The notes under the pieces were generated by a model that searched no databases, was not told the DNA's origin, and saw only the letters and a list, made by a program, of their open reading frames with translations. A stretch of DNA of 64,000 nt. It comes from Rhizobium sp. Pop5. Its GTDB lineage: Bacteria; Pseudomonadota; Alphaproteobacteria; Rhizobiales; Rhizobiaceae. A program made the translations under genes and the position numbers. Below are positions 13,487 to 62,772 of this stretch, piece after piece (the first letter of the stretch is position 1; every line of letters begins with the position of its first letter). The stretch lies in assembly GCF_024721175.1 (NCBI RefSeq), contig NZ_CP099398.1:390825-454824 (forward strand). Reading direction: 5' to 3'.

Positions 13487-14602
<1,116 letters not shown>

Positions 14603-15412: not shown

Positions 15413-15457
15413 GCGTCATCGCCGATACTCCTTCCGATGGTCGGAAGGGGGATATTG

Positions 15458-17595
<2,138 letters not shown>

Positions 17596-20483: not shown

Positions 20484-20499
20484 TGGCACGGTTGTTGCG
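20484..20499 (+). promoter_or_regulatory. Sigma54 promoter of the HEXXH protein gene
   Basis: TGGCACGGTTGTTGCG has GG and GC separated by exactly 10 bases and near-consensus -24 and -12 elements. It ends 37 bp before the start codon at 20537. No exact TGT-N10-ACA site was found in the 300 bp upstream, so NifA control is possible but not shown. Confidence 0.8.
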
Positions 20500-20536
20500 T
20501 CGTCTCACGAAAGACAGCCGTTAACGAGAGGTCACG

Positions 20537-21451
20537 ATGATGGATGTATGCTCGATGGGGATGGTGTTGTGCGGTGGGTACCTTCTTGCTGCATCCGCAG
20601 GCAGACTCGGCGGCGCTGAGAATGTCTTATCTGACTCGCCTTTGTCCGCGGCTGATGTATCGAGTTTCGAGACTTTCATAGTTCGCAGCCCACCGACATC
20701 ACTCAATCTGGATCCATTTTATGCCAAATATGCTGACGCAGCGGGCATACCTATTATTTCGTCAAACAAGGTTCCAGACACGGCACTATTGATCTCACGT
20801 GACATTGTCCTCTACATGTTGTCAGAACGCCGTGATGTCCGCGATGCTTTAATCCAGGCTGGAGCGCGGGTGGGCGTCATGGCAATTGACGAGACGACGA
20901 CTGATATTCCCGAGCAGCGGGATTGGAAGAAGCCTCTTCCCGATGATCCACGTCTCACCCCTGACGAGCGGCGGGATTACGCCAACACGATCGGCAAGAT
21001 GACTGCCCGAGACTACTGGGCACAAAGGGCGCGCGGCATGGGCGGGCTCTACACGACGGGAGCTGTGGAGAATTTGATGGGCGTGCCGGGCACGCGGTAT
21101 TACGGCGGGAACATTCTTGTTCACGAATTCTCACATAATATTTTCAACGCGCTGCGCACGGTAGATCCTGATCTCGTTGCACGAGTTGAACGTGCCTATT
21201 CGCACGCCTACGAGAAAGGCCTCTGGGCGTGTTCCTATATGGAGAACAACGTCGATGAGTATTGGGCCGAGGGCACGCGATTTTGGTTCAATACGAACTT
21301 GGCTTACAGCCGAGGCAATCTCACCATTGCCACATCAGAAGATTTCGAGGCTCACGATCCAAGCCTCTATAATATCATGGCCGAAGTCTACCGCCATGAC
21401 CACCACATTCTGGCGGATGTCTATTACCGGCATTCGGCGAAGTCGCAGTAA
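20537..21451 (+). CDS. Putative exported zinc metallopeptidase-like protein (HEXXH)
   Basis: A 304-residue protein with a hydrophobic N-terminal segment (about residues 7-22) that looks like a signal peptide, though not a textbook one. HEFSH at residues 196-200 is an HEXXH zinc motif, and EYWAEG at 241-246 has the glutamates expected of a downstream zinc ligand, a gluzincin-like arrangement. I recognise no named family with confidence; the spacing is loosely like anthrax lethal-factor-type peptidase domains. A sigma54 promoter sits 37 bp upstream, so expression under nitrogen-fixing conditions is likely. It stands alone, between nodA and an IS3 element. An inactive or non-protease fold remains possible. 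Confidence 0.7.
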   Translation: MMDVCSMGMVLCGGYLLAASAGRLGGAENVLSDSPLSAADVSSFETFIVRSPPTSLNLDPFYAKYADAAGIPIISSNKVPDTALLISRDIVLYMLSERRDVRDALIQAGARVGVMAIDETTTDIPEQRDWKKPLPDDPRLTPDERRDYANTIGKMTARDYWAQRARGMGGLYTTGAVENLMGVPGTRYYGGNILVHEFSHNIFNALRTVDPDLVARVERAYSHAYEKGLWACSYMENNVDEYWAEGTRFWFNTNLAYSRGNLTIATSEDFEAHDPSLYNIMAEVYRHDHHILADVYYRHSAKSQ

Positions 21452-21752: not shown

Positions 21753-22568
21753 TCAGGGAGGCGGGCTGGTTGCGCCTCCCGAATTCACCAACGAGATCGG
21801 CACCTTGTTGCCGATCGCACCATGAGGTCTTTCCTCATTGTAGTATCTACGCCAATCCTCCATCTTTTCGCGGGCATCCGCAAGGGTCAGGAACCAATGC
21901 TGGTTCAGGCATTCTGCACGGAAGCGGCCATTGAACGCTTCGATGAAAGCATTATCAGTCGGCTTGCCGGGGCGTGAGAAGTCCAACGTCACACCCTTGG
22001 AATAGGCCCACAGGTCCAAGTCGCGCGACACGAACTCGGTCCCTTGGTCGACACGGATCGTTTTCGGATAGCCGGCTTTTTGGCACACCCGTTCAAGGGT
22101 TTGCACAACGTCTTCGCCTCTATAGCTATGACGTGGATCAAGCACCGGCACGTAGCGCGAGAAGGTGTCGACCACCGTCAGCACGCGCAGTTTCTTACCC
22201 GTTGCGAGTTGGTCGTGAACGAAGTCCATCGCCCAGACGTCGTTGGGTCCGACGGCCATGTGCCGATCCTCGCGAAGCTTGGCTTTTACCCCCCGCTTCG
22301 GTGTCTTGTTCCGCAACTGTAGCCCCAAGTCCCTGTAAATGCGGTAGGTTCGCTTGATGTTGGTGCCCCAACCCTCGCGTTCCAACAGCACATGCACGCG
22401 GCGATAGCCGTACCGCACACGGATCTCGCAGATCTCGCGAATACGACGTTCCAGACCGGCCTGATCAGCACGGCGAGAGGTATAGTGGTGAGTTGATCGA
22501 TCGAAGTTCAACGCTCCACAAGCACGTCGGATCGAGATCGCCCAATCGCAGCACATGCCTTTCACCAT
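21753..22568 (-). CDS. IS3-family transposase OrfB, copy A
   Basis: 271 residues with an rve integrase core: WAMDFVHDQLATGKKLRVLT (first Asp), VDQGTEFVSRDLDLWAYSKG (second), DNAFIEAFNGRFRAECLNQH (third, Glu), and the C-terminal YNEERPHGAIGNKVP. Intact here; copy B has a 1-base deletion in the C-run near 38087. Confidence 0.94.
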   Translation of the reverse strand: MVKGMCCDWAISIRRACGALNFDRSTHHYTSRRADQAGLERRIREICEIRVRYGYRRVHVLLEREGWGTNIKRTYRIYRDLGLQLRNKTPKRGVKAKLREDRHMAVGPNDVWAMDFVHDQLATGKKLRVLTVVDTFSRYVPVLDPRHSYRGEDVVQTLERVCQKAGYPKTIRVDQGTEFVSRDLDLWAYSKGVTLDFSRPGKPTDNAFIEAFNGRFRAECLNQHWFLTLADAREKMEDWRRYYNEERPHGAIGNKVPISLVNSGGATSPPP

Positions 22569-37548: not shown

Positions 37549-38363
37549 TCAGGGAGGCGGGCTGGTTGCGCCTCCCGAATTCACCAACGAGATCGGCACC
37601 TTGTTGCCGATCGCACCATGAGGTCTTTCCTCATTGTAGTATCTACGCCAATCCTCCATCTTTTCGCGGGCATCCGCAAGGGTCAGGAACCAATGCTGGT
37701 TCAGGCATTCTGCACGGAAGCGGCCATTGAACGCTTCGATGAAAGCATTATCAGTCGGCTTGCCGGGGCGTGAGAAGTCCAACGTCACACCCTTGGAATA
37801 GGCCCACAGGTCCAAGTCGCGCGACACGAACTCGGTCCCTTGGTCGACACGGATCGTTTTCGGATAGCCGGCTTTTTGGCACACCCGTTCAAGGGTTTGC
37901 ACAACGTCTTCGCCTCTATAGCTATGACGTGGATCAAGCACCGGCACGTAGCGCGAGAAGGTGTCGACCACCGTCAGCACGCGCAGTTTCTTACCCGTTG
38001 CGAGTTGGTCGTGAACGAAGTCCATCGCCCAGACGTCGTTGGGTCCGACGGCCATGTGCCGATCCTCGCGAAGCTTGGCTTTTACCCCCGCTTCGGTGTC
38101 TTGTTCCGCAACTGTAGCCCCAAGTCCCTGTAAATGCGGTAGGTTCGCTTGATGTTGGTGCCCCAACCCTCGCGTTCCAACAGCACATGCACGCGGCGAT
38201 AGCCGTACCGCACACGGATCTCGCAGATCTCGCGAATACGACGTTCCAGACCGGCCTGATCAGCACGGCGAGAGGTATAGTGGTGAGTTGATCGATCGAA
38301 GTTCAACGCTCCACAAGCACGTCGGATCGAGATCGCCCAATCGCAGCACATGCCTTTCACCAT
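37549..38363 (-). pseudogene. IS3-family OrfB, copy B, frameshifted
   Basis: Same protein as copy A OrfB, but five C instead of six near 38087 shift the frame after QLRNKTPKRG. The catalytic part continues in the other frame. A sequencing error in the homopolymer would give the same picture. Confidence 0.88.
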
Positions 38364-38732: not shown

Positions 38733-39992
38733 AAGTGCACAAGATGGTGGCGAATGGGAACGTAGGGTCGTCGCCTCGATCGCCAAGAAATTGAAAAGGG
38801 GCCAGCGAGGAGCGCCTTTTGGCTCGCATCGCCGGGTCCGCGATCAAGGCCCTCGACGGAGCGGTGCCGAAATTGCCGAACAGGCGATACTTTCGGCTCT
38901 GGTCCGCAAATACAAGACTGGCGGTTCCTAAGCAGCGAGCCCAGGCGGTGCCACGTTCCTCCTACGGCATTTCATTATCCACGCATGTTACCGAGGCTGC
39001 TGAGCCTGCTCGAATTCCGGAACAATGCAGCACATCGGGTCCGCCATCGCGGCGCTGGAATGGCTCAAGCGTCTGATCGACGAGGACGACAGACGGATCG
39101 ACCCGTATCGATCCGAGACCTGGCTGTAGGCCTGAAGGCCTAGCATCCTGCCGTATTTCACGTTTACCAGGGCGTCGCCTTGCGCTGTGGCGGCAAATAA
39201 TAGGCCGTCGCTCGAAGCCGGAGTGCCCATGGATCGGTAACCCCGCCTGCGCCTCGACCACCCTGGCTAGCGCCCGGTCGTAGGCTTCGCTCTCGACATG
39301 CCACTGTCGAACACGGATTAACACCCACAAGGTGTGGGTGTCTGTGGCATCGGCCATCATGCGCAGGCCAAAGCTAGTCTCTTCTGCGAGGATGACGTTC
39401 ATCGCAGGGCGCTCCTGTACGCAGATGACTGAATGCTTCGCAGAAGCCAGTCGCAGCATCCACGTCTGGACGTCGCCTTCGCAATCGAGCCGCCCGGAAT
39501 CGTAACAGCCCGAGCTGGCGCGGCCAAGCTCGCGTAACCGGATGTCGAGGTGAGCTTGAGATTTGCCAGCTATCCTCCTGTCGCAACGGCCCCGCGAGAC
39601 GATCGCTGTCGGCCACAGCCTGGGCCGGAACAAGTGCAGGTCTGAGATCGCCATAGCGTCGGGACCCGCCCAAGCATTGCCCAATAGGTCTCGTGTTTCT
39701 TTTCGCATCCGGTGGATCTTTTACTTGACACATCCGGCCATAGCATCTGCCAATAGGGACAAGGCCCGCGGCACCAAGCGGCGCATCCGCGCCCACTATC
39801 GTGCGGAGGGCCACTAACAATTCACCAGGTTTCAGAGTGAATCAGCAGCAACAAAAATCGACGGCAAACTCGATGGGGGCTACGCGGATGGGGGCGCGCT
39901 TACTGAGCGCCGAGTCTCAACTGTACCGTCGCCACCGAACTTTGGAGCTGTCGATCCTGTTCAGGACGTTCATTCAGAACCCTACTCGGTTT
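38733..39992. other. 1.26 kb without a recognised gene
   Basis: Several frames up to about 250 codons are open (for example on the minus strand 38962-39708), but codon content and protein composition look like GC-rich noise or decayed genes, and no family was recognised. The right end contains the control region of the peptide operon. Confidence 0.45.
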
Positions 39993-40008
39993 GTCGTGCT
40001 TGCGACAG
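39993..40008 (+). promoter_or_regulatory. NifA upstream activator site of the peptide operon
   Basis: TGTCGTGCTTGCGACA fits TGT-N10-ACA exactly and begins 108 bp upstream of the -24 element (92 bp from end to -24), almost the spacing seen at nifH. Confidence 0.82.
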
Positions 40009-40100
40009 CGTGATGTGCGGTTTGGCACGTCTCGGCGCTCTAGGGCAGCCATTGAATAACATACAGAACAGTTTTCTGATGCTTTTCGCTCCTTCTGCAT

Positions 40101-40116
40101 TGGCACGAATCTTGAA
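40101..40116 (+). promoter_or_regulatory. Sigma54 promoter of the peptide operon
   Basis: TGGCACGAATCTTGAA: perfect -24 TGGCAC and TTGAA at the -12 position, i.e. GG-N10-GA, the same variant as the nifH promoter in this window. It ends 78 bp before the precursor start. Confidence 0.75.
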
Positions 40117-40194
40117 CCTTTTTGTTGCGCGCCGCTAGGAGCTCCCAACGGGGGCCTTGGCATCTTCTCAATCCAGCTCTGAACGGAGACACCA

Positions 40195-40320
40195 ATGATG
40201 AACAACATGGCAGCCTATCGTGTAACCGAATTAACCCCTCAAGAAGCAGCTGAAACCTCCGGAGGTTGGTATTTTTGGGTTTACTTGTTTTTGCGACGTT
40301 ACGGACACTTGTTTGGTTGA
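40195..40320 (+). CDS. Double-glycine leader peptide precursor (microcin-like)
   Basis: A 41-residue peptide. Residues 1-24 form a leader, MMNNMAAYRVTELTPQEAAE then TSGG, with the hydrophobic/acidic pattern and GG that C39 peptidases cut. The mature part would be WYFWVYLFLRRYGHLFG, 17 residues, very aromatic and cationic, without Cys. GGAGA lies 6 bases upstream. HlyD and a C39-type ABC exporter follow, and a NifA site plus sigma54 promoter precede it. It is therefore probably a peptide secreted by nitrogen-fixing cells, an antimicrobial or a signal. No modification enzyme is adjacent. An alternative start 1 codon downstream changes little. I know of no named homologue. Confidence 0.78.
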   Translation: MMNNMAAYRVTELTPQEAAETSGGWYFWVYLFLRRYGHLFG

Positions 40321-40338
40321 TAAGCGAGCTGGCTCTCG

Positions 40339-41519
40339 ATGGCTCCTAGTGACTACAGACTAGCAGTTCCCCTTTCTGCTGAAACGGCCAGCTGCACCGC
40401 AGAAAGCATACTGGCGCGACGATCAGGACGATCCTTGAGCATTTATAGGGCGATCTTGCTCTTCGTCGCCGCGGCATTTGGCTCACTGCCACTCGTTACC
40501 ATTCCGGTCTCCATGCAGAGTGTCGGTACTATTCGCCCGATCGTGGAGAAGACGCCCCTGATAGCGCCCGTCTCCGGACGCATCTCCCGTGTCCTTGCCT
40601 TTGAGAACGATGTCGTTGCTAAGGGGAAGGAAATAATCGCCTTTGACGATCATGTAATCGAGGAAAAGCTCAGCGGGGTTTTAGCCGACATTCATGCCAA
40701 GAGCGATCTTGCCCATGACTTCCAAACGCTGATTTCTTCCGGCGCAAGGCTCAGCGTCTCGCCCCCCTCCAAACCGAATCCGCGACGGCTGAAAGGGTGC
40801 ATTTTCTCAACTTGCTGCGCGAGAACCAAAATGCGCGCAGTAACGCCGCGGCGGAACTCGACCGCGCAAAGCGACTTGTCTCGGCTGCTGCGGCGCCGGC
40901 GAAGACCGTTGACGAGAAGGCTTTCGCTCTCCAAAATATCGAGGTCCAAGGCGAGATCCTCGTGCGACGCAAAACCGCTGATTGGAACCAGAAGCTCCTT
41001 GATGCTAACCTGCGCTTAAAGGAACTCACGGCCACCTTGCATCAGCTCGAGCACGAACGGGACCTGCACCGCATCCGCGCCCCAGTATCGGGTGCTCTCG
41101 AGCAGTTCTCCGGCCTCGCGCACGGAAGCTACGTGCAGAGCGGGCAAACCGTTGGTTGGATCTCGCCGAACGACGATCTGGTGGCGGAAATCTACGTCTC
41201 CCCCAACGACATTGGCTTTGTGCAGCCTGGTCAGCCGGTGCGGCTCCAAGTGGATGCCTTTAACTACAACCAATGGGGTGTCATCAAAGCAAGGGTGGTC
41301 GAGGTGGCGCAGGACTTCACTCTGCATGACGGGAACCCGGTCTTCAAGGTCCAGTGCGCGCTCTCTCGCAGCGAACTCGCGCTGAAAAGCGGGGCCATCG
41401 GCCACCTGAAGAAAGGCATGACCGTGCGGGCTCGCTTTCTGTTGGCCAATCGCACTCTCCTGCAACTGCTCTACGACGAGGCAGACGATTGGCTCAACCC
41501 GATGCTGGCGGGGCGCTAA
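40339..41519 (+). pseudogene. HlyD-family export adaptor, one frameshift
   Basis: The N-terminal part (40339 to about 40735) gives a membrane anchor near residues 35-60 and the lipoyl-like segment PLIAPVSGRISRVLAFENDV. After DLAHDFQTLISS the homologous sequence continues in another frame: RLAPLQTESATAERVHFLNL, a coiled coil, IRAPVSGALEQFSGLAHGSY and a C-terminal beta domain to NPMLAGR. One shift near 40735 (plus or minus 1 base) separates two good halves of about 390 residues in total. The adaptor links the ABC exporter to an outer-membrane channel. It is either a recent mutation, programmed frameshifting, or a sequencing error; neighbours are intact. Confidence 0.82.
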
Positions 41520-41546
41520 TATTGTCCCAACAGCCAGCGAGCCTCC

Positions 41547-43694
41547 ATGTCGAGTAAGGCCATTAAGTTCAAACAGCGTGACATCACGGATTGCGGCGCC
41601 GCCAGCCTCGCATCTGTCGCAGCCTTCTATGGCTACAAGTTGCCATTGGCGCGCATCCGCCAGTATGCGTCGACCGACCGCTCCGGTACGAGTGTGCTGG
41701 GGCTCACGGAAGCGGCGCAGAAGCTGGGCTTCATCGCGAAAGGCGTCAAAGGTGGCTTCGACAGCCTGTACAAGATCCCCAAGCCCGCTATCGCGCACGT
41801 CGTCAAGGAGGACCTGCACCATTTCGTAGTGGTCCATGCGATCGACGCCAAGTGGGTCATCGTCATGGACCCGGCCTTGGGCGAAATCTGCAAAGTGCCG
41901 CATCAGGAATTCATGGAGCAATGGACCGGCGTTCTGGTTTTGCTGGTTCCGGCAGACACATTCAATCGTCGAGACGAGACCACGTCGCCCCTCGCCCGAT
42001 TCGCCCGCCTACTCGCGCCACACCGCACGGTGATGGCGCAGGCTCTCGTCGGCGCTCTTGTGACGACCGTCCTCAGTCTCTCGACGGCGATCTACGTTCA
42101 GAAGATCGTTGATCACGTGATCCCAGCGGGAAACCGCAACCTGCTCAACTTGATGAGCATCGCAATGCTGCTGATCCTAGCGATACAGATCCTGATCAAC
42201 CTCCTAAGAGGCCGACTCGTCCTGCAGACGGGGCAGAAGATCGACGTATGCTTGATCCTCGGCTATTACAATCACATCCTGGCCCTGCCCCAGAAGTTCT
42301 TCGATAGCATGCGCATGGGAGAAATCGTGTCGCGCATGAACGACGCTGTGAAAATCAGGAGCTTCCTGAACGACGTTTCGATAAACATGTTTGTTGACAT
42401 TTTAATGATACTGTTCTCGTTCGGAATGATGTTCATCTATTCCTGGAATATTGCTTTGATCGTGGCGCTCGCCATTCCAATGTACATCCTGGTATATTGG
42501 GCCATCAATCGGATGAATCGAAATCTCCAACGAGTCATCATGGAAAATGACGCCAAACTCGAGGCGCAACTGGTAGAATCACTCGGAGCTGTCTCCACCA
42601 TTAAGACTTCCGGCGTCGAGAGCTTCGCAAACTTCAAAATGGAGACCCGCTTCGTAAAGATGCTGCATTCCGTCTACAGCTCCGGGCTGATCTCAATCTG
42701 CGGCGACAACGCCTCGACGTTGCTGTCGGTCCTGTTCACCATCGTGCTGATGTGGTTTGGAACCACGCTTGCGCTCGAACAGGCCGTCACGCCCGGCGAA
42801 TTGCTGTCCTGCTATACGTTGCTTGGCTATATCACCCGGCCGGTCGCCCGCCTGATCCAGACCAACCGGATCGTTCAAGACGCGTTTATCGCGGCGGATA
42901 GACTTTTCGAGATCTTTGAACTGGAGTCGGCAAGCAGCAGCGGCATCGATGCTACGAAGACCGATCTCGGAGATATTCGCCTGGAGAACGTCACATTCCG
43001 CTATGGCGCGCAGGCGGAGGTTTTCAGCGATCTAAGCGTCTCCTTTCGCCAAGGAGAGTTGACGGCCGTCGTGGGTGAGAGCGGCTCGGGCAAAAGCACC
43101 CTTGCGGCTCTGCTGCAGAATGTCTACCAGCTTGAGGATGGATGCATTCGGATCGGCCAATATGCCCTCCAGGATTTCTCGAGCGCATCACTGCACAAGG
43201 TCATGGCTGCAGTACCGCAATCGATAGACGTCTTCTCCGGTTCCGTGATCGAGAACATCGCCCTGGGCGAGTTCGAACCGGAGTTCGATAAGATCGTACG
43301 CATCTGTGATCGAATAGGACTGCGGGAGTGCATCGAGCGCTGGCCCGGGCGGTTCCAGGCCCATCTGGGCGAGAACGGGGTTCGCCTCTCCGGAGGTGAG
43401 AAGCAGCGCCTCGCATTGGCTCGGGCCCTGTACCGGGATCCCGACGTTCTAATCCTTGACGAAGCGACCTCCTCTCTGGACTCGGCAGCCGAAGAATTTG
43501 TGCTGCGGGTTGTTGAGGATCTGTCTCGCGCTGGGAAGACCATCATAGTCATCACTCATCGGTTGAGCACCGTTCGTGGGGCGGACAATATTGTGGTCCT
43601 GGACAAGGGGCGGGTCATTGAGGAGGGAAAGCACGCTGACCTAGTGAGAACTGATGGCCCTTACGCTCGATTATGGCGGGCGCCAAGGTCGTGA
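41547..43694 (+). CDS. Peptidase-containing ABC exporter (C39)
   Basis: A 715-residue bacteriocin-type exporter. N-terminal C39 peptidase with Cys16 (DITDCGAASLASVAAFYGY), His92 (HHFVVVHAID) and Asp108 (VMDPALG); membrane domain with about six helices (residues 155-440); ATP-binding domain with Walker A VGESGSGKSTLAALL, signature LSGGEKQRLALARAL and Walker B VLILDEATSSLD. It cuts the leader after Gly-Gly and exports the peptide. The catalytic triad is complete, so the precursor at 40195-40320 is its obvious substrate. It follows the HlyD gene by 27 bp and ends at an IS3 fragment, which may have removed further operon genes. Confidence 0.93.
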   Translation: MSSKAIKFKQRDITDCGAASLASVAAFYGYKLPLARIRQYASTDRSGTSVLGLTEAAQKLGFIAKGVKGGFDSLYKIPKPAIAHVVKEDLHHFVVVHAIDAKWVIVMDPALGEICKVPHQEFMEQWTGVLVLLVPADTFNRRDETTSPLARFARLLAPHRTVMAQALVGALVTTVLSLSTAIYVQKIVDHVIPAGNRNLLNLMSIAMLLILAIQILINLLRGRLVLQTGQKIDVCLILGYYNHILALPQKFFDSMRMGEIVSRMNDAVKIRSFLNDVSINMFVDILMILFSFGMMFIYSWNIALIVALAIPMYILVYWAINRMNRNLQRVIMENDAKLEAQLVESLGAVSTIKTSGVESFANFKMETRFVKMLHSVYSSGLISICGDNASTLLSVLFTIVLMWFGTTLALEQAVTPGELLSCYTLLGYITRPVARLIQTNRIVQDAFIAADRLFEIFELESASSSGIDATKTDLGDIRLENVTFRYGAQAEVFSDLSVSFRQGELTAVVGESGSGKSTLAALLQNVYQLEDGCIRIGQYALQDFSSASLHKVMAAVPQSIDVFSGSVIENIALGEFEPEFDKIVRICDRIGLRECIERWPGRFQAHLGENGVRLSGGEKQRLALARALYRDPDVLILDEATSSLDSAAEEFVLRVVEDLSRAGKTIIVITHRLSTVRGADNIVVLDKGRVIEEGKHADLVRTDGPYARLWRAPRS

Positions 43695-43801
43695 TCCGTG
43701 TAGGCCCTGTCGGCTCGAGGATTGAAAACGGTTGTGAACGTCACGGTTAAGCAGCATGGCAACATTGTCGGCTGTGAACTTGAAGCGGCGGTGATCGGAA
43801 C

Positions 43802-44391
43802 GTGGGCGATGGACTTCGTTCACGACCAACTCGCAACGGGTAAGAAACTGCGCGTGCTGACGGTGGTCGACACCTTCTCGCGCTACGTGCCGGTGCTTGA
43901 TCCACGTCATAGCTATAGAGGCGAAGACGTTGTGCAAACCCTTGAACGGGTGTGCCAAAAAGCCGGCTATCCGAAAACGATCCGTGTCGACCAAGGGACC
44001 GAGTTCGTGTCGCGCGACTTGGACCTGCGGGCCTATTCCAAGGGTGTGACGTTGGACTTCTCACGCCCCGGCAAGCCGACTGATAATGCTTTCATCGAAG
44101 CGTTCAATGGCCGCTTCCGTGCAGAATGCCTGAACCAGCATTGGTTCCTGACCCTTGCGGATGCCCGCGAAAAGATGGAGGATTGGCGTAGATACTACAA
44201 TGAGGAAAGACCTCATGGTGCGATCGGCAACAAGGTGCCGATCTCGTTGGTGAATTCGGGAGGCGCAACCAGCCCGCCTCCCTGAATGAAGCCGGAAAAC
44301 TCTAGCATCCGGTGGTCCAACGTTTGGGAGCGGTTCAAGACCGCCGAGGCTCTAATCGCCGCCGGATGAAAATTCAGTGGCAGGTCATTTG
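43802..44391 (+). mobile_element. IS3-family element, 3' half
   Basis: The sequence from TGGGCGATGGACTTC to the end TGACCTGCCAC (inverted) matches the orfB 3' half of copies A and B, nearly identically. The 5' half and OrfA are missing. A frame starting 26 codons earlier reads into it but is not a real gene. It may mark the deletion end point beyond the peptide exporter. Confidence 0.9.
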
Positions 44392-44651: not shown

Positions 44652-45137
44652 TTAAACGCGCGCTACATCTGAATAGGTCTTAATTGTTGTTAAGCCATTA
44701 TCGACCAGGCCAGTTCCCGCCTCGGCGAGCTTTTGGAGGTTGTCGAAGCCAAATCGATGTACGTCGCGGAGCGTCTTCGAGAGTACTACGAGCCGCCCCG
44801 CCGTGAGTAATATCCGACCGAATCCCTCATGGTTCACAGTCAACACCGGTGACGCCATCAGTCCGGACTGCTCCTCTATAGCAAGTGCTACGGCGGCATA
44901 GAAGATCTCAAGCCGCCACTGCACCTCTAGGTCAGGTCCCCCGATGAGAGGAATCGCCCTACGCTGCTGCCTCGTCACGATGAAATCACAGAGCAAATCG
45001 GTGTCCGATTTCTCTTGCCACAATTCAAAGGTGTCTTGAGCACGCATCAGACGCAAGAGGCACTTAATGAAAGGCGTGGCGAGAGCATCTTTCTCATCTA
45101 ATCGAGCATTGTTGGGGACAGGGGTGACGTTTGACAT
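44652..45137 (-). CDS. NifX-associated DUF269 protein, second copy
   Basis: A 161-residue DUF269 protein: ATPFIKCLLRLMRAQDTFEL, SDTDLLCDFIVTRQQRRAIP, HEGFGRILLTAGRLVVLSKT then LRDVHRFGFDNL. It is a diverged paralogue of the gene at 9329-9817 (clearly similar, many differences). It has no nifX ahead of it, only a short nifX-like tail (LPEAGVALSQ...QEDFN), then a nifH remnant. DUF683 and fdxB do not follow it. The reading frame is intact, but with no promoter visible it may be silent. Confidence 0.88.
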   Translation of the reverse strand: MSNVTPVPNNARLDEKDALATPFIKCLLRLMRAQDTFELWQEKSDTDLLCDFIVTRQQRRAIPLIGGPDLEVQWRLEIFYAAVALAIEEQSGLMASPVLTVNHEGFGRILLTAGRLVVLSKTLRDVHRFGFDNLQKLAEAGTGLVDNGLTTIKTYSDVARV

Positions 45138-46929: not shown

Positions 46930-47319
46930 TCTTTCCATCGAACCGCGTCCGGATCATGGTGGCGACCAAGCCGGTCGACTTCCGCAAGGGGCATGACGGA
47001 TTGGCGGCGCTTGTCAAAAACGAGCTGCACAAGGACCCATTTACGGGGACCGTCTTCGTATTTCGGTCACGCAAGGTGGACCGGTTGAAGCTAATCTACT
47101 GGGATGGCAGCGGTCTGGTGATGGCTTACAAGCGGCTGGAGGAGCACACGTTCACTTGGCCAGATATCCGGGACGGCTTGATGACCCTGGGACCTGCCCA
47201 GTTCGAAGCGTTGTTTGCGGGGCTCGACTGGCGTCGGGTCCGTTCCATTGAGGCGAGAGCTGTCAGTACCGGAGCAATACTCCTCATTAGTGCCGTTTGA
47301 ATCTTCCCCAGGTGCTGCG

Positions 47320-47359
47320 GCCGCCGGTCTTCCGGGGCGCGCCCCGGAAGACCGGCGGC
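47320..47359. repeat. Perfect 40-bp palindrome in IS21 copy 2
   Basis: Identical to the palindrome at 15373-15412, ahead of istA. Arms of 20 bases meet at GGGGCG/CGCCCC. Confidence 0.85.
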
Positions 47360-47404
47360 GCGTCATCGCCGATACTCCTTCCGATGGTCGGAAGGGGGAT
47401 ATTG

Positions 47405-49542
<2,138 letters not shown>

Positions 49543-56384: not shown

Positions 56385-56610
56385 ATCATGATCGGAGCCG
56401 CTTTCGAGGAGACAACATTATGCGGCCGACTGATGTTTCATCTGTTCGCGGCGCTGGCGAATTCCGGCGTGATCTGGTCAGAGAGCGGACCCGTGCCGGC
56501 CCGGAGGAACGTGGTAGGCGCGGCGGCGGCCGCCGCTGATAAGCTTGCCAGGGCCTCATCTGGTGGCTGGCCACAAAGTGCGCGAGGCCATCGCACCTTA
56601 CGAGGCTCTT
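56385..56610 (+). pseudogene. Serine recombinase (resolvase/invertase) relic
   Basis: GRLMFHLFAALA in one frame, then EFRRDLVRERTRAGPEERGR and, after a further shift, GLIWWLATKC-like text, match the middle and hinge of a Tn3-type resolvase or DNA invertase. Catalytic N-terminus and a full C-terminal HTH are missing. It is a remnant of a transposon next to the phasin duplication edge. Confidence 0.7.
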
Positions 56611-56637
56611 AGATGGTTACATGTGGGGGATAGTAAA

Positions 56638-57192
56638 ATGATTGTAGCTGTTCCAAATAGCGGGGCGTCACGGATTAACCAATCCGGTGTAGAAGCATTA
56701 CGAGAATTTCCTAACTTTCCGATAGGCGGGATCTTGTTCAAGGATATAGCGCCTATGCTGGCTGGTAGAGGTGCATTGGGCGAAGTCGTTTCTACCGTCG
56801 CAAGCCAAGTGTCGGGAACAGAAATCGATGCCATTTTGGCGGTTGATGCGCGTGGTTTCATCTTGGGCGCCTCATTGGCTGATAGGCTCGGTTGCGGTTT
56901 CATCATGGTAAGGAAACCCGGTAAACTGCCGGGGGACGTCCTCTCATTTGAATACAGCTGTGAATACTGCTCCGGAACCCTGGAGGTAACTGCCGGCCTC
57001 ATCGGTGACGGCCTGCGATGCCTGATTGCTGATGACCTTCTAGCGACGGGTGGCACTGCTCGGGCGACTGGGAATTTTGTCAAGTCCCAAGGCGGAGAGA
57101 TCGCCGGATACGCATTCATACTCGAAATCGAAGTTTTGAAAGGCAGGCGTCAATTGGACGACGCACCAGTGATCAGTGCGATGACGTGCTAG
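56638..57192 (+). CDS. apt: Adenine phosphoribosyltransferase-like protein
   Basis: A 184-residue type I PRTase. Segments NFPIGGILFKDIAPMLAGRG and ILAVDARGFILGASLADRLG and VRKPGKLPGDVLSFEYSCEY are typical of APRT; the PRPP loop is LIADDLLATGGTARATGNF. It would add phosphoribose from PRPP to adenine or another base. Start ATG 56638 follows GGGGGA; an upstream frame runs through recombinase debris and is rejected. It is the first gene of an operon with a radical SAM enzyme and a PRPP synthetase; as an accessory copy it probably serves that pathway. The C-terminus has a MTC end. Confidence 0.9.
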   Translation: MIVAVPNSGASRINQSGVEALREFPNFPIGGILFKDIAPMLAGRGALGEVVSTVASQVSGTEIDAILAVDARGFILGASLADRLGCGFIMVRKPGKLPGDVLSFEYSCEYCSGTLEVTAGLIGDGLRCLIADDLLATGGTARATGNFVKSQGGEIAGYAFILEIEVLKGRRQLDDAPVISAMTC

Positions 57193-57223
57193 CGCAGCAA
57201 CATAGACGTAAGGAGGCAAGCGC

Positions 57224-58492
57224 ATGAATACCCCTGATTGGCTTTCGACACCGCAGGACGTGCATGTAGCCAGTCAGACGCTACAGGCCCTCGTCACAAG
57301 TGAACTTTCGAAACGAGTCGTCTCGGAAAACGAAATTAAAACGATCTATCTGTTTCTAACCCGCAAGTGCAATTTGGGATGCCACCACTGTTATATCGCA
57401 GGCGTCGGGCCCAAGGCCAAGGGCATTGATTTCAACCTGGAGGCGATCCAAGGACTGATCGAGCAAGCACTACCCAATGGGCTGCGCAAGGTTAAGGTTT
57501 CCGGGGGTGAACCGATGGTTCACAAGGAATTCATGGCAGTCATGGAATATCTCGCATCCTGTGGGCTGAAGGAGCTGGTTTTCGAGACGAATGGAACCCT
57601 CTTTGACGAGTTCACGATCGAGCAGCTAAGTAGGCTCCCCAATTTGACGGTCTTCATCAGCCTCGACCATTTCGACCCAGAGGCGCACGACGCTTTCAGA
57701 GCAAAATCGGGTGCGTTCGCCAAGACTGCGATTGTCCTGCAGCGGCTTGGAAAAACTGACATCTCTACGGTGGTAACGACGACTGCCTATCGCAACAACT
57801 ATGACAAGGTGATTTCGATTATAGATTTGGTGCTCGGCTGGGGCATCAAGAAGCATCGGACGCTGCTCAACATACATCCGATGGGCAACGCGCGCAGCCA
57901 TGAGGACAATGCGATAAGCTTGGAGGAATGCAAGCTACTGATAGGCGATCTTTTGAAATCTCCCCATTTTGAGAGTGGCGCTGCATACATGACTCTGCCG
58001 CCGGCTCTGATGCCTCTCAAGTATCTGAACGGCGTGCATACTTGCGGTTGGGGCGACAACGTACTGGGCATACTGTCGAACGGACAAGTTTCGATGTGCA
58101 GTGCCTCCTACGATGATCCGGAAATGATCGCCGGCAATGCCTTCGAAATGCCCTTGATGGAAATCTGGCGCAACAGCCCGTTCTTCCATGAGCTACGCGA
58201 GGTGGTGAGTGGCGAGGTTAAGGGCGTCTGCGGCAACTGCGTGTTTTATCCAGTCTGTCGCGGCGTCTGCAAGATGAGTAGCTGGTCGCACTATGGTGAA
58301 AAGGACGCGCCCTATCCGCTGTGCCAGGAACTTTACAATAACGGAGGTTTTCCGGAGTACGCCCTGGTGGACCCGACGAAAGATTCCACCTACCGCCGCG
58401 GAGTTATAGCGAAAGAGCGTCGGCCCGCCGCCGAAGCTCCTGTCTATAACTTCTCGGAGGAAATCGCGGCTGCTGCGCAACACACTCACTAA
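57224..58492 (+). CDS. Radical SAM/SPASM-type enzyme
   Basis: A 422-residue radical SAM protein. The cluster motif is CNLGCHHCY (Cys49, Cys53, Cys56), followed by the SAM-binding KVSGGEPMVHKEF. The C-terminal part has SPASM-like cysteines: HTCGWGD, VSMCSASYDDPEMIAGNAFE, then GVCGNCVFYPVCRGVCKMSS. Such enzymes modify peptides or small molecules, often forming thioether, C-C or other cross-links. AGGAGG lies 9 bases upstream of ATG 57224. No obvious precursor peptide was found, so substrate is unknown; the flanking PRPP genes suggest a nucleotide- or sugar-derived one. Confidence 0.88.
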   Translation: MNTPDWLSTPQDVHVASQTLQALVTSELSKRVVSENEIKTIYLFLTRKCNLGCHHCYIAGVGPKAKGIDFNLEAIQGLIEQALPNGLRKVKVSGGEPMVHKEFMAVMEYLASCGLKELVFETNGTLFDEFTIEQLSRLPNLTVFISLDHFDPEAHDAFRAKSGAFAKTAIVLQRLGKTDISTVVTTTAYRNNYDKVISIIDLVLGWGIKKHRTLLNIHPMGNARSHEDNAISLEECKLLIGDLLKSPHFESGAAYMTLPPALMPLKYLNGVHTCGWGDNVLGILSNGQVSMCSASYDDPEMIAGNAFEMPLMEIWRNSPFFHELREVVSGEVKGVCGNCVFYPVCRGVCKMSSWSHYGEKDAPYPLCQELYNNGGFPEYALVDPTKDSTYRRGVIAKERRPAAEAPVYNFSEEIAAAAQHTH

Positions 58493-58572
58493 CGCAGGAG
58501 GCGCGACGTAATAATTGCTGTGTCGACGACGTAATTTAACCAGGTCAACAAAAATAACGTGGAGGATTGAGG

Positions 58573-59067
58573 ATGAGCAGAGCTTTCCGAGGTGCGGCGG
58601 GTGTGGCGCACACACTTGCGAACAACGCGATACGATCCGGCAACAAAGCAGCCGCCCAGCAAGCCCAGGTGATTTCTCGTCTCGCGGAAGGACTCGCCCG
58701 GCTGCAGGCGGGTTTGGATGACCAAGCTCAGCAATTGACGGCTGGCCTTGTAAAATTAGAGCAATCGCTAAAGGTGTCACGCAGATCGCAACGGTCGAAA
58801 TCCGGCTCACTCGCTGCTAACGGCGAACTACAAGACTACTACGTTGATATAACCGCCTCGAAGAAATTTGGCAAAGCCAATTGGCCGCGCGCCGCCGATT
58901 CAGGTCTTGTAGGACGCCGCATTGGGCGAGGACCGGTTAGGATGACTGGTTCCGACACACAATCGGCAAAGGCGGTTACCGCCGCATTCGCCAAACTTCT
59001 CTCGGCTCAGGCACAATTGCTGCAGATACGCAGTGAAGTGGAAGACCTCAAGAAGGTTCAGAGGTAG
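58573..59067 (+). CDS. Unknown protein in the radical SAM operon, A
   Basis: A 164-residue protein, MSRAFRGAAGVAHTLANNAI, with an Ala/Gln-rich N-terminal coiled coil (residues 10-70), a basic middle (SRRSQRSKSGSLAANGELQD), and a second coiled coil at the end (AQLLQIRSEVEDLKKVQR). No family recognised. GGAGG lies 7 bases before the start. Its stop is 5 bases before the next gene. It might be a scaffold or partner; it could also be a protein substrate of the radical SAM enzyme, as it is neither enzyme-like nor exported. Confidence 0.72.
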   Translation: MSRAFRGAAGVAHTLANNAIRSGNKAAAQQAQVISRLAEGLARLQAGLDDQAQQLTAGLVKLEQSLKVSRRSQRSKSGSLAANGELQDYYVDITASKKFGKANWPRAADSGLVGRRIGRGPVRMTGSDTQSAKAVTAAFAKLLSAQAQLLQIRSEVEDLKKVQR

Positions 59068-59072
59068 CGGCA

Positions 59073-59402
59073 ATGGCTAGTTCCCGACTGTTTGGCTACG
59101 CCGTTGACGAAGAGGATGGCAAGCTGGTAATCGTGATTGACGGATTGCTTGCCGAAAGTTGCATCCGGCAAATTCGGGACAGCGCCCAGACGGGCCGCGG
59201 TGGTGAACTCTTGTCGCGATTGCTGCCGGTAAGTTCGGTTTACAAGCTTATGTCTGGACAAGAGGAACGCGCTGAAGAAACGCTCAGCCTTGAACAGTTG
59301 CTTGGACAAAACGTCGACCAGAGTTTCGCTTCCTTCGAACAACAGTTCGCCGACCTGAGGCAGACACTAGCCGAATTCGGCAGCCCGGAAAGTTCGAAAT
59401 AA
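59073..59402 (+). CDS. Unknown protein in the radical SAM operon, B
   Basis: A 109-residue acidic protein: MASSRLFGYAVDEEDGKLVI, then VIDGLLAESCIRQIRDSAQT, an RGGELLSRLLPVSSVYKLMS core, and a C-terminal helix (NVDQSFASFEQQFADLRQTL). No family recognised. It starts 5 bases after gene A and ends 29 bases before the nucleotidyltransferase. A single Cys near residue 30. Function unknown; co-translation with gene A suggests a complex. Confidence 0.72.
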   Translation: MASSRLFGYAVDEEDGKLVIVIDGLLAESCIRQIRDSAQTGRGGELLSRLLPVSSVYKLMSGQEERAEETLSLEQLLGQNVDQSFASFEQQFADLRQTLAEFGSPESSK

Positions 59403-59431
59403 ATCACGCAGCCGTATCAGGAGTCTCCGCG

Positions 59432-60547
59432 ATGCTTCGGTTGTCACCAGAAGACTCTATTTTGCTGATCACCTGCCGGGCCTACCTACGACCCGAGGAT
59501 GAAGAGCGTTTGGTCCGTCTCTGCAAGGAGCCTGTCAACTGGCCCTATGTGGTATGGCGCGCCGAGCATAATCGGACGGTGCCGCTGCTTGAGAATCACT
59601 TGCGCCGCCTCGATTTGTTGACACTATTGCCTACTGAGGCGGCGCATTACGTTCAGTGCTGGACTGTCATGTCAAAGGTCAGGTCCGCACTCGAATTTCG
59701 CAATCTGCCAGAAATCATGGATGCGCTGGATCGGGCCGGCATCGCCTGGTTCCTGGTGAAGGGACCAGATCTCGCGCTTCTCCACTATCCCGATCCACTC
59801 CTACGGCCGATGACCGATCTCGACATCATGGTCAAGCCCGCTGACGCGCAGCGCGTGCAGCGGCTCATGTTCGATCTCGGCTACCGGCACGGTATTTTCG
59901 ACCCTTCAAATGGCAACTGGCATCCGGAACGAAAGGAACTCGATGACGAAACCTTCCGCGAAAGCTATTCCTTGCCGGTGTTTGTAAGGATAGAATCCGT
60001 TGAATCTCCGTTCCCTGGTCCCGCGGTGCCACGCCAGCTGCGCTACCGCCACGTAAAGGGATACATCGATTCCGCGAAGAAGCTGCACATGCCCATCTTC
60101 ATTGATATGCATGTAAATCTCTCCGTCGGCATCGATGTCGAAGACATATGGTCAGGCGTGCGTCTTGCAAACGGTCTAGGCCGCATATTGCAGGTCCAAT
60201 CCGCGACTGGCGCCGTCTGGTTCCTTTCGGCCAGGCTTTATCACGAGGCCTTCCTTTATAATTCGCTTCGACTATTGATGTTCGGCGATCTTCATGCGGT
60301 TCTACACAAAGAAATGGCGAATATTAGCTGGGCGGAGGTCGCTGCGATAGGTTACAAATACGAGATGAGGCCGGCGTTATATTTCGTCCTGACGCAGATG
60401 AAGCGCATCTGTGGGATAGACATACCGTCCGAGTTCCTAGAGCTCATTCGACCTGATCAAACCGAGGTACCACTTCAACATGATTGGGGCGACGTGTTGC
60501 CCAAACTGCTGTCTATTCCCACTGTTAACGATCTTGAGCTGGCGTAA
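59432..60547 (+). CDS. Nucleotidyltransferase-fold protein (NTP_transf_5-like)
   Basis: A 371-residue protein with the signature of the uncharacterised nucleotidyltransferase family seen in peptide and natural-product clusters: FLVKGPDLALLHYPDPLLRP then MTDLDIMVKPADAQRVQRLM, where KG and D-x-D are the likely active-site residues. The C-terminal half is helical. AGGAG is 9 bases upstream. Its stop is 2 bases before the PRPP synthetase start, so both are translated together. It probably transfers a nucleotide to a small molecule or protein, with an unknown acceptor. Confidence 0.82.
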   Translation: MLRLSPEDSILLITCRAYLRPEDEERLVRLCKEPVNWPYVVWRAEHNRTVPLLENHLRRLDLLTLLPTEAAHYVQCWTVMSKVRSALEFRNLPEIMDALDRAGIAWFLVKGPDLALLHYPDPLLRPMTDLDIMVKPADAQRVQRLMFDLGYRHGIFDPSNGNWHPERKELDDETFRESYSLPVFVRIESVESPFPGPAVPRQLRYRHVKGYIDSAKKLHMPIFIDMHVNLSVGIDVEDIWSGVRLANGLGRILQVQSATGAVWFLSARLYHEAFLYNSLRLLMFGDLHAVLHKEMANISWAEVAAIGYKYEMRPALYFVLTQMKRICGIDIPSEFLELIRPDQTEVPLQHDWGDVLPKLLSIPTVNDLELA

Positions 60548-60549
60548 AT

Positions 60550-61491
60550 ATGGCGCCCGAGTCACCATATCGTACAGATCCTGCGGCGAACGACCTTCGT
60601 ATCGCAGCAACCGAAACCTCTGCAAAGTTTGCGTCAACAGTCCATCGGGCCCTCACGCGGTCAGGAATAACGATCCTAAACACGCAGGTGTTCAGCAATG
60701 GCCAGATGGCTGTCACTCCGCGCGACGGCGCGCTTGGCGGAAATGTGGTGGTCGTGCAAACATTTCCTGACAGCGTTCATGATCGTCTTTTCGAGTTGTT
60801 CCTAGCGCTTGGTGCCGTGCGGGCGCGGGGTCCCCGCACGATTACCGCTGTTCTTCCCTACCTCCCATATTCGCGTTCGGATCGCCCTGCCTTCGACGGC
60901 GGACCTGTACCGGTGCGAATCCTTGCGGGGATTATCGAAACGCTCGGTATAGATCGGCTGATAACTTTCGAACTCCATGTTCCTCAGCTGTGCGCCGCAT
61001 TTGCCTGTCCTGTCGTCAATCTTCAGTTCGCTCCCGCCCTAGTTCGCCATCTCGGTTCTGCGGCCGTCGATGGCGACATGGTCGTTTCACCGGACTTCGG
61101 CGGAGCGAAGCGAGCTGAGCACTTGGCGGCCCTGCTCGGCTGCCCATTCGCTGTCATGCGCAAGCACCGCAGAGACGATGATGACTTTCGGGAGAGCGTC
61201 GAGATTCTGGGGGACGTTGCTGGCCGGACGATCATCCTGATTGACGACGAAATCAACAGTGGTCAGACGGCTTTTTCAGCCGCCGCACATCTCAAAGCGG
61301 CAGGCGCTCGCAAGATAACCCTTGCCGCAGCCCATGCCATATTCACGCCGTCGCTGAACGAAAACTGGGGACGGTCTCAGATCGACCGCATCGTTGTGAC
61401 CGACAGCGTCGGACGTACCGACAATTTCCCCGACAGTGTCGAAGTAGTCTCGATCGGCAACGAAATTGCAGGCGCGCTGCAGGCACGCTGA
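60550..61491 (+). CDS. prs: Ribose-phosphate pyrophosphokinase, diverged
   Basis: A 313-residue PRPP synthetase homologue. PYLPYSRSDRP corresponds to the canonical PYYGYARQDRK, GGPVPVRILAGIIETLGIDR to the ATP region, SPDFGGAKRAEHLAALLGC to the flexible loop with Lys-Arg, and IILIDDEINSGQTAF to the PRPP loop. It makes PRPP from ribose 5-phosphate and ATP. Being accessory and in an operon with an APRT-like enzyme, it may provide a dedicated PRPP supply. Several catalytic-site substitutions versus housekeeping Prs suggest altered control or substrate. It ends 6 bases from the convergent dehydrogenase. Confidence 0.87.
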   Translation: MAPESPYRTDPAANDLRIAATETSAKFASTVHRALTRSGITILNTQVFSNGQMAVTPRDGALGGNVVVVQTFPDSVHDRLFELFLALGAVRARGPRTITAVLPYLPYSRSDRPAFDGGPVPVRILAGIIETLGIDRLITFELHVPQLCAAFACPVVNLQFAPALVRHLGSAAVDGDMVVSPDFGGAKRAEHLAALLGCPFAVMRKHRRDDDDFRESVEILGDVAGRTIILIDDEINSGQTAFSAAAHLKAAGARKITLAAAHAIFTPSLNENWGRSQIDRIVVTDSVGRTDNFPDSVEVVSIGNEIAGALQAR

Positions 61492-61497
61492 GAAGCA

Positions 61498-62532
61498 TTA
61501 CCTGAAATCTAGCATCACGCGATTAACACGTGGATCGAGCGCCTGCTCGAATGCCTCTTGGGCGTTTGACGAGGGCCAAAGATTGACCTGCAGCACGTCG
61601 AAGCGTGCGGCGTGTTCAACGATGGTTCGGATGGCATTTCTCACGTCGTCCGCGCTTTGGGCTATGGTGCCGATCAGTTCAATTTCCCGGTAATGCAGAA
61701 AGTTAGCGCCTACCGATAACAAATCGGACGTCGGAATCGATTGGTAGAGTACAATCCTGGCACCGCGTGACGCCGCAGCTATGGCCCCCTGAATGCCTCT
61801 GACACCGAAGCGCGTGCAAAAGATGCAGTCGAAGCCCCAGCCATCCGTTAATTTCTCGACGAGTTTCGGATCAGACAGAGAATGAACTGACCCCGTTGCA
61901 TGGGCGCCGGTCGACATCACAGGCCCATGCGTTGCCACGTCGTCATCGAAAAGGTAAACGTCGCATCCTTTGGTTGTCAGAAGTATCGAATGGAGAAGGC
62001 CCATCGTGCCTCCGCCGATGACGGCCACAGTGTCTCCAGCCTTTGCACGCGCCCTATTTATGCCGCGTGCCACGCAGGCGACAGGTTCAACTAACGCGGC
62101 ACGCTCGGGAGCCAAAAAGGAAGGTACGGAAAAAACCTGATAGGCGGGTACGCCCACAAAATTGGCCAATCCCCCCGGCCCCTGCGGCACCCCTCCTCTC
62201 GCTTTAGGATTTAAATATGCACAGTGGTTGTCCAGTCCGAGGCGGCAGGCACGACATTGGCCGCATCTGCGCATTAAAAGCACCGCAACGCGGTCTCCTA
62301 CGCGCAGGCCATCCGGTACATCGTCCGGCAGAGACACGATCGTGCCTGACAACTCGTGCCCGCCCCAATAGGGGTAAGTCGGCTTGGCGCCCCGATAAAC
62401 GCGTTGCTCCGGTGTGCAGAGTCCACACAACTCTATCCGCACACCGACTTCGGACGATACGGCGAGTGGAACCGACAATGTCCATTCTTCAACCTTGCGG
62501 GGGCAAGTAATTACGAGTCCACGAACCTCCAT
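61498..62532 (-). CDS. Zinc-dependent alcohol dehydrogenase family protein
   Basis: A 344-residue medium-chain dehydrogenase. Catalytic zinc region GLCTPEQRVYRGAKPTYPYW then GHELSG; structural zinc cysteines in RRCGQCRACRLGLDNHC; NAD loop AVIGGGTMGLLH. It resembles sorbitol/threonine dehydrogenases. The start MEVRGLVITCPRK at 62532 is preferred over one 25 codons upstream. It is convergent with the PRPP operon (6-base gap), so it belongs to a separate transcript yet could act in the same pathway on a polyol or amino sugar. Substrate unknown. Confidence 0.87.
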   Translation of the reverse strand: MEVRGLVITCPRKVEEWTLSVPLAVSSEVGVRIELCGLCTPEQRVYRGAKPTYPYWGGHELSGTIVSLPDDVPDGLRVGDRVAVLLMRRCGQCRACRLGLDNHCAYLNPKARGGVPQGPGGLANFVGVPAYQVFSVPSFLAPERAALVEPVACVARGINRARAKAGDTVAVIGGGTMGLLHSILLTTKGCDVYLFDDDVATHGPVMSTGAHATGSVHSLSDPKLVEKLTDGWGFDCIFCTRFGVRGIQGAIAAASRGARIVLYQSIPTSDLLSVGANFLHYREIELIGTIAQSADDVRNAIRTIVEHAARFDVLQVNLWPSSNAQEAFEQALDPRVNRVMLDFR

Positions 62533-62571
62533 ACGAGACCTCTCGCTCCCCGACACACCGACTATCCTAAT

Positions 62572-62772
62572 ATGTACACTTACTTGCATCCAGAATCTAG
62601 CCAACAACCACAGGCGGCAGTCAGAAAGCTGATGAAATCACGTGCCTTGCTGGCGGGCTTGCTTATGTCCTGGGTCTTGACAAGCTTCTCGGAGATATCG
62701 TCGGCGCAAACGGCAAAGGACGTTTCAAGCGGCAGAAGTGTTCCCTTGCGCAAGGAGCGACGAAACTATTGA
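62572..62772 (+). CDS. Short frame with signal peptide, possibly truncated exported protein
   Basis: 66 residues. An internal Met begins MKSRALLAGLLMSWVLTSFS then EISSAQTAKD, a convincing Sec signal peptide with AQT cleavage region. The protein ends after SVPLRKERRNY, too short for a normal exported protein, so it may be the 5' end of a broken gene. Low confidence as a functional gene. Confidence 0.35.
   Translation: MYTYLHPESSQQPQAAVRKLMKSRALLAGLLMSWVLTSFSEISSAQTAKDVSSGRSVPLRKERRNY

Follow-up and report, generated by a model that had tools for sequence, protein, structure and literature searches.

What does the short reading frame that lies, in Rhizobium sp. Pop5, between a nif-type promoter and a peptide exporter encode, and is its product made together with nitrogenase? 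In the window, that is, the whole stretch of 64,000 nucleotides analyzed here, the earlier note had described a double-glycine (GG) precursor gene with HlyD and C39 exporter genes, downstream of a sigma54 promoter with a NifA-type site. This observation was confirmed, the genes following the promoter elements in the order precursor, HlyD, exporter, and nifA is located on the same contig. The features are:

39992..40007, plus strand: NifA-type upstream activator sequence, TGT-N10-ACA, assigned by pattern match and conserved pairing with the -24/-12 site
40101..40116, plus strand: sigma54 (-24/-12) promoter, TGGCACGAATCTTGAA, assigned by pattern match and conservation across loci
40195..40320, plus strand: double-glycine precursor, 41 aa (leader 40195-40266, core 40267-40317), assigned by open reading frame and conservation
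40339..41519, plus strand: HlyD-family periplasmic adaptor, frameshifted near 40761 (ORFs 40339-41019 and 40797-41519)
41547..43694, plus strand: C39 peptidase-containing ABC exporter, 715 aa, with Cys16-His92-Asp108
13490..14380, minus strand: nifH, used for comparison; its promoter lies at 14469-14454 and its upstream site at 14575-14560, 106 bp apart

The cassette was found in Rhizobium, Sinorhizobium/Ensifer, Mesorhizobium, Microvirga, and Bradyrhizobium, and 32 non-redundant loci form the comparison set. All carriers found in two of these genera (29 of 29 in Rhizobium and 12 of 12 in Mesorhizobium, 41 in total) possess nifH or nifB.

The upstream site and the promoter of the peptide locus are 109 bp apart, start to start, compared with 106 bp at nifH, and the nifH-like spacing proposed earlier thus holds. 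Significance of the upstream site by itself was rejected, as TGT-N10-ACA occurs nine times in the 64-kb window against 8.0 expected. The pair is significant because it is conserved across loci: at a distance of 98-109 bp it is kept in 21 of the 32 loci, with one occurrence in 3200 shuffles and none in 32 coding controls, and the other 11 loci lack the pair in its strict form. These counts come from the strict pair scan; the promoter alignment has the window, L021, and L022 anchored at a wrong one-mismatch site, and for upstream sites with one mismatch an occasional chance occurrence is expected. A -24/-12 site of the same pattern precedes 29 of the 32 loci, with a near-consensus site in two more, and in two bean-type loci the upstream site is displaced. 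Zero-mismatch matches to the TGGCACGNNNNTTGNW pattern occur at two places in the 64 kb, the peptide locus and nifH. A TGT-N10-ACA site conserved at a nif-like distance before a -24/-12 promoter is also the promoter architecture of the NifA-RpoN regulon of R. etli, which comprises 78 genes (Salazar et al. 2010, as given in the available passages of PMC11387232). The predicted control of the peptide locus by NifA and sigma54, and the dedication of the exporter to it, are strongly supported by this comparison, since the promoter pair and the leader are kept over five genera while cores and flanks vary.

The precursor consists of a 24-residue leader ending in GG and a 17-residue core with a net charge of +2. 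A leader of this type is encoded at 31 of the 32 loci (0 of 1920 shuffles, 0 of 32 coding controls), so that the peptide passes the check proposed for it, conservation beside the exporter; no other occurrence of the leader was found in the genome. Leaders are conserved and cores variable, with dN/dS of 0.20 and 0.72, respectively, although this estimate has biases. In most relatives the core is about 30 residues long, hydrophobic, and rich in small residues, compared with 17 residues in bean rhizobia; strict GxxxG is present in few cores (one in that of the window), and small-xxx-small is common. Some Bradyrhizobium and Sinorhizobium loci encode Pro/Cys-rich cores that are not membrane-like, and in some Bradyrhizobium loci the core is unrelated. 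Two peptides are encoded at 14 of the 32 loci, and one in the window. The claim that the precursor is too short for ordinary gene calling was wrong, as it has a RefSeq annotation in R. etli CFN42 (RHE_RS34940, WP_004676277.1), and some relatives already bear the name class IIb bacteriocin. In profile searches, two of nine relatives passed the class IIb bacteriocin model TIGR03949 of NCBIfam (25.6 and 21.8 bits, cut-off 21.5); the peptide of the window matched no bacteriocin model above cut-off, TIGR03949 included, and no Pfam family was found above cut-off for the peptides.

The C39 domain of the exporter is matched with E = 5.2e-32. Gln10, Cys16, His92, and Asp108, residues with catalytic roles in C39 peptidases, line up with their counterparts in PDB entry 4ry2, an ABC-type bacteriocin transporter, and the reported Cys16-His92-Asp108 triad is thus in place. 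The score against TIGR01193 (peptide cleavage and export), 524.6 bits, is barely above the cut-off of 523.85. With a Cys-His-Asp C39 domain joined to the membrane and ATPase domains of an ABC protein, and with a double-glycine substrate encoded next to it, the exporter belongs to the C39 peptidase-containing ABC exporters (PCAT). The frame of the adaptor is open at 30 of the 32 loci and broken in the window and in L119. At a homopolymer near 40761 the window is one base shorter than 30 comparable loci, some of which are one strain reached twice, and all 39 plasmid records covering this stretch are one base longer than the window. A working HlyD in this assembly is therefore unsupported, and unless the missing base is a sequencing error, export may be lost in this strain.

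An immunity gene at the locus was sought by ORF conservation on both sides and not found. No conserved ORF of at least 40 aa, a cut-off that shorter ORFs would escape, was found within 3.5 kb downstream of 22 loci, where the widest ORF cluster covers five loci and appears by eye to be transposase-like; upstream, the conserved ORFs were only the peptides or ORFs overlapping the peptides or promoter, mostly antisense. Class II microcins such as microcin V combine a double-glycine precursor with a C39 ABC exporter and a membrane fusion protein in Gram-negative bacteria. The cassette shares these three components, with the adaptor frame broken in the window, but has a different leader, a nif-type promoter, and no cognate immunity gene that we could find. 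It likewise resembles class IIb two-peptide bacteriocins (lactobin A/cerein 7B, TIGR03949) in the double-glycine leader, the hydrophobic small-residue-rich core, the C39 exporter, the tandem peptide genes, and the model matches in relatives; unlike them, it combines a NifA/sigma54-type promoter and a Gram-negative exporter with HlyD with the lack of a detectable immunity gene, and the window has a single peptide outside the model.

The R. etli operon RHE_PD00332-RHE_PD00333 (PMC8479133) is very probably the same operon, as it is composed of an HlyD gene and an ABC gene of the bacteriocin type on pD, and p42d matches the exporter at only one place with an E value of 1e-130 or better. According to the available passages of that paper, the operon partly restored growth alongside yeast, and yeast co-culture induced nifH in separate reporter tests; these passages mention neither a peptide gene nor a NifA promoter, and the role they propose is detoxification.

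With a probability of about one half, we interpret the locus as a class II bacteriocin-like system under NifA/sigma54 control, with processing by the C39 domain, that has been reduced in bean rhizobia to a single short peptide. Judging from the conserved promoter, a single operon would be switched on by NifA and sigma54 together with the nif genes. As in its family, and given its active site, the C39 domain would cut the precursor after GG, and the core would leave through the exporter, HlyD, and a putative TolC-type channel. In relatives, the core would often come as a pair of distinct peptides encoded in tandem, as in two-peptide class IIb bacteriocins, and bean rhizobia would have retained one 17-residue core, with the adaptor frameshifted in this strain. 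The likeliest use, conjecturally, is an attack on the membranes of related or competing microbes, within nodules or at other sites poor in oxygen. This explanation is favored by the promoter-pair conservation, the leader motif, the two-peptide loci, the leader and core dN/dS, the TIGR03949 matches in relatives, the C39 active-site residues with the TIGR01193 match, the presence of nifH or nifB in the 41 carriers, the location of nifA on the contig of the window, and the yeast growth effect and nifH induction in R. etli (PMC8479133, in part). It is weakened by the failed immunity gene search, the short core without a bacteriocin-model match, the HlyD frameshift, the Pro/Cys-rich cores, and the loci lacking the strict promoter pair; moreover, the strain that showed the yeast effect had been cured of the plasmid on which CFN42 carries nifA, and NifA was thus not needed for the effect there. 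No activity assay for any of the cassette's peptides was found. More generally, such a cassette, under a switch of the kind that controls nitrogenase, is present in many nitrogen-fixing legume symbionts, which suggests that rhizobia secrete its peptides during nitrogen fixation or at low oxygen. A bolder and doubtful extension is that at least five rhizobial genera share a NifA-licensed two-peptide weapon, made only by cells running the nitrogen-fixing program, which would exclude rival and non-fixing rhizobia from nodules and whose cores would diversify like competition toxins.

A peptide directed at the host, or a signal, would be exported under the same NifA control and act on the symbiosome membrane, on plant receptors, or between nodule rhizobia rather than kill. 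C39-exported peptides acting on plants exist, for instance RaxX of Xanthomonas. The nif-linked control and the lack of an immunity gene in our ORF searches fit such a role, as does the fact that the named peptide relatives, and the named exporter relatives with at least 68% identity among the 120 matches listed, all belong to rhizobial genera. A core that varies, and is unrelated in some Bradyrhizobium loci, is unlike a receptor ligand, however, and tandem two-peptide genes with TIGR03949 matches indicate bacteriocins, so that we regard this role as unlikely. It is also rather unlikely that the locus of bean rhizobia is a decayed remnant of a two-peptide bacteriocin, no longer functional after losing one peptide and shortening the other. 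The single short core, the HlyD frameshift, and the displaced upstream sites would agree with decay, but other bean strains (L010-L019 and plasmid records) keep a near-identical intact precursor, exporter, and promoter with an open HlyD frame, and the leaders of the window and L024 differ by two synonymous and no non-synonymous changes. Far less probable is the hypothesis of the authors of PMC8479133, which its available passages base on an R. etli pA-/pD- strain that was partly complemented, that HlyD and the ABC protein expel antimicrobials such as yeast sophoroside, the peptide being incidental: a role as nothing but a drug pump is unlikely in view of the C39 active-site residues and of the double-glycine peptide conserved at nearly all loci, and those authors had yet to test the ABC gene on its own.

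In the open-access literature, outside which most subscription papers lie, no description of this family of peptides or of a NifA promoter belonging to it was found in the passages available. Those of the bacteroid and regulon papers PMC6421345, PMC3973600, PMC11387232, and PMC3164627 name neither gene of the exporter operon, and no passage naming them was found in PMC2881028. Likewise, HlyD is unmentioned in the available parts of PMC4999443 and PMC3538637, as is bacteriocin in the latter, where an ABC transporter that was tested is ExsA, a different gene; those of PMC4085339, PMC8627217, PMC9855851, PMC11218460, and PMC3557214 contain no description of the peptide locus. The Mesorhizobium mobile elements examined in PMC8627217 yielded no bacteriocins with BAGEL4, as far as its available text goes, which could reflect a limit of the tool or be true of those elements. 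If peptide secretion is indeed tied to the nitrogenase switch, the NifA regulon would gain a new output, and there would be a testable mechanism for how strains compete, occupy nodules, or interact with the host. Such secretion would also connect a defined peptide gene with the yeast phenotype seen in R. etli and so far unexplained (PMC8479133, in part). The cassette also provides a family of natural peptides open to assay. A single published study, PMC8479133, describes in its available passages an activity of the exporter operon, and this activity was outside the nodule.

The locus is a cassette for a bacteriocin-type peptide and a C39 exporter, under a promoter of the nitrogen-fixation type, and is present in several rhizobial genera. 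An earlier note had proposed it from the sequence alone; the locus is real, and broader than one sequence could reveal. The promoter architecture and its conservation, the precursor, the exporter with its active-site residues, and the nif association are all shown at the sequence level. The parts in the window are listed below, with nifH for comparison.

39992-40007, plus strand: NifA-type upstream site TGT-N10-ACA (motif search)
40101-40116, plus strand: sigma54-type promoter TGGCACGAATCTTGAA (motif search)
40195-40320, plus strand: precursor peptide ORF, 41 codons (ORF reading)
40339-41519, plus strand: HlyD-type adaptor, frame broken in the window (family match)
41547-43694, plus strand: C39 ABC exporter, 715 residues (family match)
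13490-14380, minus strand: nifH

Preceded by GGAGA at a distance of a few bases, the peptide ORF encodes a 24-residue leader ending in GG and the 17-residue core proposed before, with a net charge of +2. The gap to hlyD is 18 bases in the window and larger in some relatives. In an alignment with the ABC-type bacteriocin transporter of PDB 4ry2, the exporter matches at its presumed catalytic positions Gln10, Cys16, His92, and Asp108, which include the triad named in the earlier note. The precursor would be cleaved after GG and the peptide probably secreted. An IS3-type transposase gene (type by eye) is present in three copies or parts (21753-22568, 37549-38166, and 43722-44285), one directly 3' of the exporter, and an element resembling the IS21 type by eye in two (15350-17595 and 47297-49542).

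The distance from the upstream site to the -24 element is 109 bp at the peptide operon and 106 bp at nifH, in agreement with the spacing noted before. The upstream site alone was rejected as a significant signal, since nine occur in the window against a mean of 8.0 expected. The pair of site and promoter was compared among 32 loci, the window included, retained at 12-mer overlap below 0.6 from 61 with at least 2100 bases upstream; the filter is lenient and close relatives remain, for instance L066 and L095 with identical peptides. With a spacing of 90-115 bp permitted, the pair was found at 98-109 bp in 21 of the 32 loci, in 1 of 3200 shuffles, and in none of 32 exporter coding sequences. Outside these 21, L090 and L092 combine the upstream site with a promoter close to consensus, and L022, L065, L114, and L119 offer, as weak evidence, a one-mismatch upstream site at 101-109 bp; L093, L115, and L116 have no upstream site at the pair spacing. 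In the alignment, site and promoter are kept and the intervening sequence has diverged. Because of this conservation across loci, the pair is more than chance, and NifA and sigma54 probably transcribe the operon. In the remaining two of the 32 loci, the bean-type L009 and L020, an insertion has moved the upstream site to 1150 bp from the promoter, providing a natural test of the upstream-site requirement.

A search for the exporter at E 1e-150 or better gave 29/148 Rhizobium genomes, 12/146 of the genus taken as Mesorhizobium, and 7/33 of the genus taken as Sinorhizobium/Ensifer; in even samples at E 1e-130, it occurs in 5/394 genomes of the family and 4/397 of the order. The 91 plasmid records with a match are named Rhizobium (44), Bradyrhizobium (24), Sinorhizobium (7), Mesorhizobium (4), Microvirga (1), and others (11, including Gram-positives and Bacteroidota); 11 records have below 60% identity, and an itemised listing covered all but 31 of the 91. 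Among the best 120 of 7031 exporter relatives passing, all named ones at 68% identity or more are rhizobial, one Bradyrhizobium stands at 60%, and those named at 59% or less are Desulfobacterales, Deltaproteobacteria, Magnetomoraceae, and Longimicrobiaceae. The nif check covered Rhizobium and Mesorhizobium, where nifH (E 1e-100) is present in 21/29 and 11/12 carriers, against 57/148 and 100/146 genomes overall, carriers included. The nine carriers without a nifH match are all many-contig assemblies with nifB above the cut-off, nifB being searched in carriers only. NifA above the cut-off was found in five of the six genomes or records searched, including the window's own contig and the R. etli plasmid p42d, and not on the cassette-bearing Bradyrhizobium 41S5 plasmid.

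The leader type (commonest residues MKxDMSAYGVTELTPEEASATSGG) is encoded at least once at 31 of the 32 loci, the sole miss being L114 (B. elkanii USDA 76), and in 0/1920 shuffles and 0/32 exporter coding sequences; 14 loci encode two peptides. Two core types are recurrent among the Mesorhizobium and Sinorhizobium pairs, one similar to FWAIAFAVLGLLGLAA, also present at two Rhizobium loci, and the other to FWGVVWAAVTLLAFVAATIAEG. Across the 42 distinct peptides, E-8, A-7, G-2, and G-1 are invariant, A-7 and GG being imposed by the search motif. The core varies: dN/dS is 0.20 for leaders and 0.72 for cores (29 related pairs), values that are indications rather than tests, since the pairs have sequences in common, had to reach a core identity of at least 60%, and come from a motif biased to conserved leaders. 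The cores are mostly hydrophobic and about 30 residues long; a length of 17 residues is seen in three variants from bean rhizobia and in one form from Mesorhizobium. Unlike the others, the cores of L063, L117, L065 (Bradyrhizobium), and L099 (Sinorhizobium/Ensifer) are rich in Pro and Cys, which for L063, L065, and L099 suggests unrelated, non-membrane-like cargo swapped behind one leader. A profile search with the family yielded 63 protein clusters, the taxon-named ones belonging only to Mesorhizobium, Sinorhizobium/Ensifer, Bradyrhizobium, Rhizobium, and Microvirga; some already carry the name class IIb bacteriocin in NCBI or UniRef. TIGR03949 was passed by two of ten peptides tested (nine relatives and the window peptide), the window peptide giving no match.

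We conjecture that the peptide is a membrane-active antagonist of related bacteria. A host-directed or signalling peptide is a rival reading, and the search for an immunity gene bears on the choice. Downstream (3.5 kb, 22 loci, ORFs of at least 40 aa), the widest cluster spans five loci and is transposase-like by eye; upstream, the ORF clusters common to 32, 22, and 10 loci consist of the peptides, ORFs overlapping them, and ORFs that run for the most part antisense to the promoter and the peptides. An immunity gene was not recognised, and one below the ORF size limits would escape detection; either the bacteriocin reading loses weight, or the immunity gene lies in another place. The system could also have lost its function in bean rhizobia. 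The HlyD partner named in the earlier note consists in the window of two overlapping frames, where a homopolymer near 40761 is one base shorter than in 30 comparable loci (some single strains reached twice); 39/39 plasmid records covering the stretch have one base more than the window. The adaptor frame is open in 30/32 loci and broken in the window and L119. Export may be lost in the window strain, or the homopolymer may be an assembly error.

A detoxification exporter is the remaining rival. The R. etli operon RHE_PD00332-RHE_PD00333 is very probably the same operon as in the window, judging by gene names and by p42d matching the exporter at one place only at E 1e-130. CE3 is presumably a CFN42 derivative, and the plasmid missing from the cured strain of the yeast study carries nifA in CFN42. 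In that study, the operon partially rescued pA-/pD- R. etli in mixed biofilm with yeast, RHE_PD00332 by itself did not, and the authors proposed that yeast sophoroside is detoxified; yeast co-culture also induced the nifH and fixA promoters in reporter strains (PMC8479133). Since the cured strain is without the nifA-bearing plasmid, the yeast effect did not require NifA in that strain.

Three further regions of the window were observed. On the minus strand, sigma54-like TGGCATGAGTCTTGAA at 45677-45662 and a TGT-N10-ACA site at 45779-45764 make up another nif-like pair with a spacing of 102 bp, about 0.5 kb upstream of a DUF269 gene (44652-45137; NifX-associated in RefSeq for CFN42). At 20484-21451, a sigma54-like TGGCACGGTTGTTGCG precedes a protein of 304 residues that shows an HExxH motif by eye and matches no Pfam family. 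Finally, Radical SAM/SPASM, NTP_transf_5, PRPP-synthetase-like, and alcohol-dehydrogenase-like genes, with an APRT-like gene by eye, lie close together at 56545-62607 and may form a biosynthetic gene cluster carried by the symbiotic plasmid.
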